Shown piece after piece: positions 26,506 to 28,627 of a stretch of 47,337 nt of DNA. Made by a program: the position numbers and the translations under genes. The DNA is from Chitinophagales bacterium. GTDB taxonomy: Bacteria; Bacteroidota; Bacteroidia; Chitinophagales; CAIODY01. How positions within the stretch are numbered: the first letter of the stretch is position 1; each line of letters starts with the position of its first letter. Where the stretch lies: assembly GCA_026461075.1 (NCBI GenBank), contig JAPJNH010000071.1, forward strand, positions 1 through 47,337. The letters run 5' to 3'. The notes beneath the pieces were generated by a model. The model searched no databases and was not told where the DNA came from. It saw nothing but the letters and a program-made list of their open reading frames with translations.

Positions 26506-26933
26506 TGCAACAAGTGGTGCATATCGTCAATGGTCCCAATCTTAATCTAGTAGGGCAACGTGAGCCAAGTATTTATGGCCATGAAAGCTTTTCGGATTTG
26601 TTGGAAAGCCTGAAGCAAGAGTTTCCAACGGTGGTCTTAGAATACTATCAAAGTAATGTAGAAGGGGAGCTAATCAATTATTTACAGGGTGTAGAGGCAG
26701 ATTCACTTGGTATCATCATCAATGGTGGCGGCTATTCCCATACAAGTGTAGCCCTAGCAGATACGATCGCCGCGAGTAAAGTGCCAGTGGTAGCGGTTCA
26801 CTTATCGAATACATTGGCTAGAGAGGCCTATCGCCACACGGATTTATTAGCAGGAAAAGCAAAGGGATATATCGGCGGCTTCGGCATGCATTCTTATCGC
26901 CTAGCGCTTCGTTATTTGCTCGACTTAGTATAA
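26505..26933 (+). CDS. aroQ: 3-dehydroquinate dehydratase, type II
   Basis: Dehydrates 3-dehydroquinate to 3-dehydroshikimate, two enzymes before chorismate synthase's substrate branch and one step before AroE. The 142-residue small dodecameric type has VNGPNLNLVGQREPSIYG (catalytic loop with Tyr), INGGGYSHTSVALADTI (usually NxAAYTHTS), VAVHLSNTLAREAYRH (His catalytic), and GFGMHSYRLAL. The start at 26505 overlaps the tatC stop by one base; the upstream TTG at 26499 is less likely. It overlaps the glycosyltransferase 3' end on the other strand by 9 bases. Confidence 0.94.
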   Translation: MQQVVHIVNGPNLNLVGQREPSIYGHESFSDLLESLKQEFPTVVLEYYQSNVEGELINYLQGVEADSLGIIINGGGYSHTSVALADTIAASKVPVVAVHLSNTLAREAYRHTDLLAGKAKGYIGGFGMHSYRLALRYLLDLV

Positions 26934-27953
26934 GTCTTTAAAGCGTTTTTTACCACGGACAAAATATTGCCAGAGGATACTTTTTGGATAGTAGCCCTTA
27001 AATTCATGCATATCGGCAGGGTGATGAATATAACGACGTTTACGGAGCAGTTGCGGTAGCTTGGCAAAGAAATGCCAATGTGCCTTGACGATAGCCCAGG
27101 TTTCTTTGAATTTACCCTCTTTTATGAATTTTAAGCCTGCTACGCCGTCAAGGACTAATCGTGGCAATAAACGGATTAAAAGCGTCTTTAAAGGCCAGTT
27201 TTTGAAGAGGAGATAAAGCGAATTGCGAAAGTTGAGATAGGTTTTGAACGGACTGCTTGCGGGCAACATGCCTCCGCCTACGTGATATACTTCTGATTCG
27301 GCGCAATAGTAGATTTCGTAGCCGCTATTTTGTAAGCGCCAGCAAAGGTCGATTTCTTCTTGATGCGCGAAGAAGTCGTCGTCGAAGCCATGCACCTGCC
27401 AGAAGGCATCTGCACGTACAAGCAGACAAGCGCCACAAGCCCAGAAGATAGGCTTTGAAACGGCAAATTGACCTTCATTTTTTTCTAAGCTGTCAAAAAT
27501 TCGCCCTTGGCAAAACATATAACCCATCGCATCGGTGAATCCGCCAGCCGCACCAGAGTACTCTAAATAGTTTTTATCCGTTTGCAAGACGAAACGAGGC
27601 TGGACTGCTGCTATAGATGGCTTGCTTTCAATGAGATCAATCATCGGTTGCAACCAATTGGCAGGTACCTCGACGTCCGTATTTAGCAAAACGTAATAAT
27701 CCGCCTTCACATGTTCCAATATGCGGTTATAGCCACCAGCAAAACCGTAATTTTTGTCGTTTTGAATGATCGCTACATTCGGAAAATGGGTGCGTGTCCA
27801 GCTAACAGAGTGATCGGTAGATGCATTGTCGCCGAGCACCACTTTTAGATTAGGGTAATTAGTCTGTAAAACGCTTCCTAGAAAGCGTTCTAGCCAATGC
27901 TGCCCATTCCAATTAAGGAGTACCACTGCCACTAAAGGAGCCGATTCTGTCAT
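26925..27953 (-). CDS. Family 2 glycosyltransferase
   Basis: A 342-residue GT-A fold transferase using a nucleotide sugar, probably at the inner membrane for envelope polysaccharide. Motifs are VAVVLLNWNGQHWLERFLGS at the N-terminus, DNASTDHSV (nucleotide binding), LLNTDVEVP (metal-binding DxD-like), and HQEEIDLCWRLQ (catalytic-base ED region). It resembles rhamnosyltransferase-like GT2 proteins, but donor and acceptor are unknown. The start MTESAPLVAVV is chosen because the upstream in-frame part overlaps the promoter. A perfect -7 box sits only 4 nt upstream, suggesting a leaderless message, and GTGGG repeats lie behind it. Confidence 0.88.
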   Translation of the reverse strand: MTESAPLVAVVLLNWNGQHWLERFLGSVLQTNYPNLKVVLGDNASTDHSVSWTRTHFPNVAIIQNDKNYGFAGGYNRILEHVKADYYVLLNTDVEVPANWLQPMIDLIESKPSIAAVQPRFVLQTDKNYLEYSGAAGGFTDAMGYMFCQGRIFDSLEKNEGQFAVSKPIFWACGACLLVRADAFWQVHGFDDDFFAHQEEIDLCWRLQNSGYEIYYCAESEVYHVGGGMLPASSPFKTYLNFRNSLYLLFKNWPLKTLLIRLLPRLVLDGVAGLKFIKEGKFKETWAIVKAHWHFFAKLPQLLRKRRYIHHPADMHEFKGYYPKSILWQYFVRGKKRFKDLY

Positions 27954-27957
27954 GTCA

Positions 27958-27965
27958 CAAAAATA
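27958..27965 (-). promoter_or_regulatory. Glycosyltransferase promoter, -7 box TATTTTTG
   Basis: A perfect TAnnTTTG match on the minus strand with only 4 nt to the ATG at 27953, so transcription would start at or near the A of the start codon. Confidence 0.45.
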
Positions 27966-27972
27966 AGCCGTC

Positions 27973-28010
27973 TCCACGGGATTCCCACATTTTCCCACCG
28001 AGCCCTCCAC
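27973..28010 (-). promoter_or_regulatory. GTGGR repeat array on the glycosyltransferase side (candidate MraZ boxes)
   Basis: Read on the minus strand there are four GTGGR units in line, starting at 28010, 27998, 27988 and 27977 (spacings 12, 10 and 11). The middle two are GTGGGAAAAT and GTGGGAATCC, exactly 10 bp apart. Known MraZ operators are TGGGN repeats with 5-bp spacers. The array covers the -33 region of the glycosyltransferase promoter. Confidence 0.5.
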
Positions 28011-28059
28011 TTTAGTGAACAGTCGTGTTTATCGGCATTTGAAGGCGATTTAGGGTTTT

Positions 28060-28068
28060 TGTGGATAA
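28060..28068 (-). promoter_or_regulatory. Perfect DnaA-box sequence upstream of mraZ
   Basis: TTATCCACA on the minus strand (TGTGGATAA on plus) is the consensus 9-mer for DnaA. It overlaps a possible -7 box TAACTTTT (28066-28073) of the mraZ operon. A single site could be chance. Confidence 0.35.
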
Positions 28069-28096
28069 CTTTTTTCACAAAAAGACTTGCTTTTTG

Positions 28097-28126
28097 GTGG
28101 GGGTATGTGCAAATTTGTGGGAGTCA
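28097..28126 (+). promoter_or_regulatory. Three 10-bp repeats before mraZ (MraZ operator)
   Basis: GTGGGGGTAT, GTGCAAATTT and GTGGGAGTCA follow one another with exact 10-bp period and end at the mraZ ATG. This matches the TGGGN plus 5-bp spacer pattern of MraZ binding sites known from E. coli and supports autoregulation of the dcw cluster. Confidence 0.7.
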
Positions 28127-28627
28127 ATGGAAAAAAAGGGAAAAAATAGCAACCAAGCGGTCTCCATCTTGTATGGTGATTTTGAGTGCACGCTCGATGA
28201 TAAAGGGCGTATCCTTTTGCCATTGGCATTAAAGAAGCAGCTGCCAGAACACGCACAAGGACATTTTGTGATTGCTCGTGGAACGGATGAACATGCTGCT
28301 ATTTACCCGTATAATGTTTGGATGCAATTCTTGCAGAAGTTGGGTCGCCTGAATCACACACAGCGTGAAGTACGTGAGTATGTGCGTATGGCAACAACCC
28401 ACTCGATGGAAGTGCACATTGATAATAGCGGTCGTTTATTATTGCCGAAGTCGTTGATAGCAGAAGCGAAAATCAAAAAGGATATCGTGTTGAAAGGCTC
28501 TGCTTATATGATTGAAGTTTGGTCGAAAGAAATTCACGACAAGCTTTATGGTAAGAAAAACGAGTCATTCGCAGAGCTTTCTCAAACGGTGGGTGCAGGT
28601 ATTGATCTTTCGGATTTCCAATTCTAA
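28127..28627 (+). CDS. mraZ: Transcriptional regulator MraZ
   Basis: A DNA-binding regulator that heads the dcw cluster and represses it in E. coli. The 166-residue protein has two AbrB-like SpoVT halves, each with the DxxGRxxLP signature (DDKGRILLP near residue 24 and DNSGRLLLP near residue 106). It probably forms a ring that binds repeated boxes. The ATG at 28127 is chosen because it follows the repeat array directly and begins shortly before the first SpoVT domain. The longer in-frame GTG start at 28061 would add 22 unlikely residues. rsmH follows after 9 nt. Confidence 0.95.
   Translation: MEKKGKNSNQAVSILYGDFECTLDDKGRILLPLALKKQLPEHAQGHFVIARGTDEHAAIYPYNVWMQFLQKLGRLNHTQREVREYVRMATTHSMEVHIDNSGRLLLPKSLIAEAKIKKDIVLKGSAYMIEVWSKEIHDKLYGKKNESFAELSQTVGAGIDLSDFQF

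Follow-up and report, generated by a model that had tools for sequence, protein, structure and literature searches.

Two arrays of MraZ-type repeats that run in opposite directions were found before mraZ in a Chitinophagales genome, and a second array opposed to the one at mraZ recurred at this place in some thirty families, where under 1% was expected. The opposed array is most likely a second MraZ operator that serves the autoregulation of mraZ, and, as judged from sequence comparison, it belongs more to mraZ than to the gene on its other side.

The mraZ control region and its two arrays

The window, i.e. the whole stretch of DNA that was analysed (47,337 nucleotides), is part of a 2.5 Mb Bacteroidota genome in which mraZ and a glycosyltransferase gene lie back to back. 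The region contains the following features:

26925 to 27953, minus strand: divergent family-2 glycosyltransferase gene (PF00535; 342 aa from the ATG at 27953)
27958 to 27965, minus strand: predicted glycosyltransferase -7 box TATTTTTG, 33 nt from the start of the best minus pair
27973 to 28010, minus strand: opposed (minus) array, with units starting at 28010 (GTGGA), 27998 (GTGGG), 27988 (GTGGG) and 27977 (GTGGA)
28060 to 28068, minus strand: DnaA-box-like site TTATCCACA, between the arrays, matching TTWTNCACA
28086 to 28117, plus strand: predicted mraZ promoter, consisting of CTTG (28086-28089), 20 bp and CAAATTTG (28110-28117)
28097 to 28121, plus strand: plus array, with MraZ-type units at 28097 (GTGGG), 28107 (GTGCA) and 28117 (GTGGG)
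28127 to 28627, plus strand: mraZ (166 aa), first gene of the dcw cluster

The genes after mraZ are, in order, mraW/rsmH, an ftsL-like gene, ftsI, murE, mraY and murD (names as assigned on reading the sequence). Membership of the encoded protein in the MraZ family is supported by two copies of PF02381, both above cut-off. Each half of the protein also carries a D-x-x-x-R motif (D24..R28 and D99..R103), which was invariant in 11 sequences from relatives and which we take to be the DNA-binding signature of MraZ. The protein was 99% identical to that of the Chitinophagales MAG CANGEV010000009.1, and solved MraZ structures are available (1n0e, 9qlg, 9sx6 and 9qlr). For the glycosyltransferase, a start at the GTG at 28010, with which the minus array would become coding, was considered and rejected, because the extension is open in the window genome (G000) and in G002 but closed in G001, where the ORF aligns from its ATG. 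The outermost minus unit itself supplies this in-frame GTG, which would add 19 residues to the protein.

The original prediction described three plus-strand units running to the mraZ ATG. These were read directly as GTGGGGGTAT (28097), GTGCAAATTT (28107) and GTGGGAGTCA (28117); the middle unit is degenerate, with GTGCA instead of GTGGG, and the last one ends exactly at the ATG (28127). The mraZ promoter was assigned by eye, by comparison with the Bacteroidetes consensus TTTG/TAnnTTTG (PMC6847099), the -7 box of which is placed at -12 to -5 (PMC9723704), and its layout was also visible in the family alignment. Transcription is predicted to start at about 28122, 5 nt before the ATG, and the plus array would span about -25 to -1 of this start. 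For the survey, mraZ was located by profile in 94 genomes of the same order and in 87 genomes of other orders of Bacteroidia. In 177 of the 181 genomes, a plus array with the unit GTGGkAAAAw and a period of 10 bp lay no more than 130 bp from the start of the MraZ domain. Plus-type arrays were also found in all 20 other genomes of the phylum and in E. coli, with a lowest score of 11.8; the E. coli mraZ promoter carries the unit GTGGGAAATT GTGGGGCAAA GTGGG and reached 23.4 bits with the Bacteroidia profile. The plus array of the window, with its GTGG(G) units at a 10-bp period directly 5' of mraZ and over the predicted promoter, is by its sequence the ordinary MraZ operator of Bacteroidia, to which MraZ would bind. 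In one genome of the survey (G268) mraZ was matched twice (G268:C37 and G268:C47), possibly a duplicated gene or assembly redundancy.

The four GTGGR units that had been described on the minus strand were likewise read directly, two of them (27998 and 27988) exactly 10 bp apart. The spacings between the units are 12, 10 and 11 bp, and the outer units are thus off the 10-bp period. The exact word GTGGG-N5-GTGGG occurs a single time in the 2.5 Mb genome, at 27984-27998 within this array. By chance, 0.10 copies of the looser pair GTGGR-N5-GTGGR would be expected in the 47 kb window; genome-wide it was found 7 times, the same number as in the reversed 2.5 Mb control. As the looser pair is at chance level across the genome, its position, and not the word count, is what matters. 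Both arrays were scored with a pair profile built from the plus arrays of relatives, which gave 21.3 bits for the minus array and 14.5 bits for the plus array; of 888 control windows, each 410 bases long and taken from the loci of the relatives, 99% had a best score below 9.05. When the genome of the window was searched for arrays of two or three units, no other clear MraZ target emerged, and most matches looked like chance. In the family alignment the cores of the minus array were kept in G002 and mostly kept in G001, G003 and G004. The minus array shares its unit and period with the plus array and is conserved in relatives. Both arrays fit the MraZ unit that precedes mraZ in E. coli and across Bacteroidia, which supports the view that MraZ would bind at both.

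Recurrence, orientation and spacing of the opposed array

Opposed arrays were searched on the minus strand from -410 to -120 at a threshold of 12 bits. Within the order, 30 of 93 genomes had an opposed array above this threshold, compared to 0.35 expected from dinucleotide shuffles, and 18 arrays exceeded 18 bits, a score that none of the shuffles reached. The further genomes of the class gave an opposed array in 33 of 87 cases, at a control rate of 0.6%. When all genomes with a plus array were pooled, the second array was opposed in 66 of 177 and had the same orientation in 8 of 177, while shuffles predict about 0.4%. Outside the class, three of the 20 genomes of the phylum (G707, G652 and G728) had an opposed array, and none was found in E. 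coli within the 400 bp scanned. These counts support a recurrent array and not a product of chance. About two thirds of the genomes have no opposed array at the threshold used, and it is therefore not essential for autoregulation.

Plus and minus arrays from the same genome were more alike than arrays compared across genomes (13.77 vs 13.29 of 20 positions, p = 0.004), a likeness that is partly due to selection, as the minus arrays were found with the plus-array profile. Greater likeness within a genome is expected if one protein reads both arrays, and part of it may come from shared base composition or ancestry.

The gaps between the facing ends of the two arrays ranged from 50 to over 340 bp and clustered near 71, 82, 93 and 104 bp. 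Phasing was tested on sets thinned by genus or family, in which deeper relatedness remains; for gaps below 130 bp and one genome per genus, a Rayleigh test at 11.1 bp gave R = 0.61, with p about 0.0004 when all the periods tried are taken into account, and p was 0.0018 at a fixed period of 10.5 bp. With one genome per family R was 0.68 (p = 0.0006). When all gaps below 260 bp were included, again per genus, the phasing was weaker, with a best period of 10.3 (R = 0.36, p = 0.026). The two arrays thus appear roughly helically phased where they lie close together, and the variable gaps together with the weaker overall phasing do not look like one rigid complex.

The neighbouring gene and the DnaA-box-like site

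The original prediction placed the minus array over the -33 region of the glycosyltransferase promoter and proposed that MraZ controls this gene as well. The opposed array would then be the operator of the divergent gene, and MraZ, bound between the two genes, would repress a gene that is not part of the dcw cluster. For this reading speaks the exact TATTTTTG box in G000 and G002, from which a leaderless transcript is predicted, its first base being the A of the ATG (27953). The 33-nt offset of the box from the pair start is just short of the commonest offsets for plus arrays (34-36) and close to the geometry of the mraZ operators. Relative to this predicted promoter the minus array extends from about -57 to -20, and its placement over the -33 region holds provided the promoter is real. 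By this layout the glycosyltransferase promoter in G000 and G002 is a credible candidate for control by MraZ. Across all genomes, an exact divergent -7 box lay at a canonical offset behind 5 of 66 minus arrays, compared to 0.74 by shuffles (p = 0.001, with no correction for relatedness); the genomes concerned are G000, G002, G029/G041 and G024, i.e. three genera, the window's included. The best single case for the capture of an array by a divergent gene would be family f4, in which the array lies 55 bp (G029) or 56 bp (G041) from the divergent gene, whereas its distance to mraZ is 217 and 368 bp, respectively. At these two loci (L123 in G029 and L122 in G041) the divergent gene is ArsC-like with an exact -7 box, and the mraZ distance shifts by 151 bp.

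The wider distribution speaks against the divergent gene as the owner of the array. Upstream genes, called by simple ORF choice, were divergent in 120 and co-directional in 60 genomes, and the opposed array was no commoner with the former (45 of 120, 37.5%) than with the latter (21 of 60, 35%). The divergent genes change from lineage to lineage and include, as judged from their first residues, alpha/beta hydrolases, QueA-like, ArsC-like and secreted proteins and others. Among 177 plus arrays, 148 had a -7 box with at most one mismatch at a canonical offset (null 25.7), compared to 9 of 66 minus arrays (null 10.2), for which there is no excess. The glycosyltransferase adjoins mraZ in G000, G001 and G002. 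Among these relatives with the same neighbours both arrays were kept in G002, whereas in G001 two good units (GTGGA and GTGGG) and a weak one (GGGGG) are left, at about 90 bp from the glycosyltransferase start and with no -7 box at the 33-nt offset from the minus array. The sister genus (G003 and G004) keeps both arrays, and there the divergent gene encodes a long secreted protein with a start 196 bp further away. The best glycosyltransferase match in these two genomes was on a contig other than the mraZ contig, no array was found in the region upstream of the G004 homologue, and G005 yielded no convincing homologue. Cross-regulation of the glycosyltransferase is thus possible in the window species and its closest relative, as suggested by the position of the box, and is neither conserved in the third species of the genus nor the rule elsewhere; as an account of the opposed array, we regard an operator of the divergent gene as rather unlikely. 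Some genomes without a called divergent gene (e.g. G230, G284, G105 and G059) also had opposed arrays, as would be expected if the array marked an antisense or divergent non-coding transcript under MraZ control. The lack of any promoter-box excess downstream of the minus arrays makes such a transcript very improbable. Chance GTGG words in an intergenic region would agree with the genome-wide count of the looser pair, and are extremely unlikely in view of the recurrence at this one place in so many families.

The DnaA-box-like site between the arrays is one of 28 occurrences of TTWTCCACA in the 2.5 Mb genome, and its TGTGGA core was invariant in the family alignment. TTWTYMACA is the DnaA-box consensus, and the site is by this match a putative DnaA box. 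Of the 181 genomes, 141 carried TTWTYMACA and 64 carried TTWTCCACA in the 300 bp that precede the MraZ domain start, compared to 3.1% and 0.4% of control windows, respectively; these controls were mainly coding sequence. Of the 177 genomes with a plus array, 133 had a TTWTYMACA in the 150 bp that precede it, and the sites favoured certain offsets and orientations: 49 forward sites fell between -15 and -11, counted from the first unit, and the -40 and -30 bins contained 18 and 16 reverse sites, respectively. Sites of this kind may connect DnaA with the dcw cluster. In E. coli MG1655 (L232, about 491-500), TTTTCCACA (as TGTGGAAAA) is located about 240 bp upstream of mraZ. In family f21 (L141 of G251, L118 of G253, L127 of G199, L132 of G197, L136 of G235 and L143 of G229) the minus pairs are tandem DnaA-box-like words and not MraZ units, for example GGTTATCCACAACTATCCACA in G251. 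That some or all minus units are DnaA boxes would suit these f21 pairs, which read GTGGATAR and resemble TTATCCACA in tandem. It is quite improbable for the remainder, as the window and most opposed arrays have G or T as the fifth base and a 10-bp repeat, a misfit to TTWTCCACA, and the two central minus units of the window are GTGGG.

A proposed pair of operators acting on mraZ

The conservation, orientation, phasing and independence from the neighbouring gene suggest that the two operators probably act together on mraZ. On balance, we consider it probable that both arrays are MraZ operators, a proximal and a distal, opposed one of the mraZ control region, that act through a small repression loop, with the glycosyltransferase perhaps co-repressed in the species pair. 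At the plus array, the proximal operator over the mraZ promoter, MraZ would repress its own gene and the dcw cluster, while the opposed array would be the distal operator within the same control region. MraZ rings bound at the two sites, on roughly the same face of the helix, could touch one another and thereby close a short repression loop of about 70-110 bp. The DnaA-box-like site inside this loop could couple the switch to replication. In the species pair the distal operator overlies the predicted glycosyltransferase promoter, and co-repression of this gene may be a side effect.

Looping is the natural reading because MraZ is oligomeric and ring-forming. In the cited sections of PMC8475190 and PMC7761207, MraZ is described as a repressor of its own operon through such repeats, and an octamer is reported in the latter; the autoregulatory operator of E. 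coli was described by Eraso et al. 2014, as cited in PMC8475190 and PMC4446571. The E. coli operator resembles the plus array in its unit and its 10-bp period directly before mraZ, where MraZ represses its own gene and the dcw cluster, and differs in being one array in one orientation. For Mollicutes and Burkholderia cenocepacia, the sections on MraZ sites in PMC8475190 and PMC7761207 describe direct repeats around GTG with short spacers before mraZ, and in M. genitalium the motif is reported there only before mraZ. These sites share the direct GTG repeats before mraZ with the window, and no opposed second array is described in those sections. At the E. coli mioC promoter, according to the cited part of PMC4446571, MraZ binds at a site that overlaps a DnaA box. 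As in the window, where the DnaA site is DnaA-like by sequence, MraZ and DnaA sites are combined in one control region; unlike the window, mioC is not at mraZ, and the DnaA-like site of the window is separate from the two MraZ arrays and lies between them. LacI, GalR and AraC are oligomeric repressors that form repression loops on two operators. The two proposed operators, their apparent helical phasing and the oligomeric protein would be shared with these systems, the sites of which are palindromes and not direct-repeat arrays as in the window; for MraZ, looping is proposed here, and we know of no demonstration of it. A search of the available literature found no paper on opposed MraZ arrays, which does not prove that there is none. 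More tentatively, a looped MraZ complex on two opposed, phased arrays with a DnaA site between them might control the dcw cluster in much of Bacteroidia. DnaA and MraZ would then compete or cooperate and thereby link replication to division, and the distal array would have captured the neighbouring gene in some lineages.

mraZ is among the most conserved bacterial regulators, and how its ring-shaped protein acts on repeated sites is little understood. The recurrent, opposed and roughly phased second array leads to a concrete hypothesis, namely two-site or loop repression, and the DnaA-like sites that accompany it point to a possible link between the initiation of replication and the division cluster.
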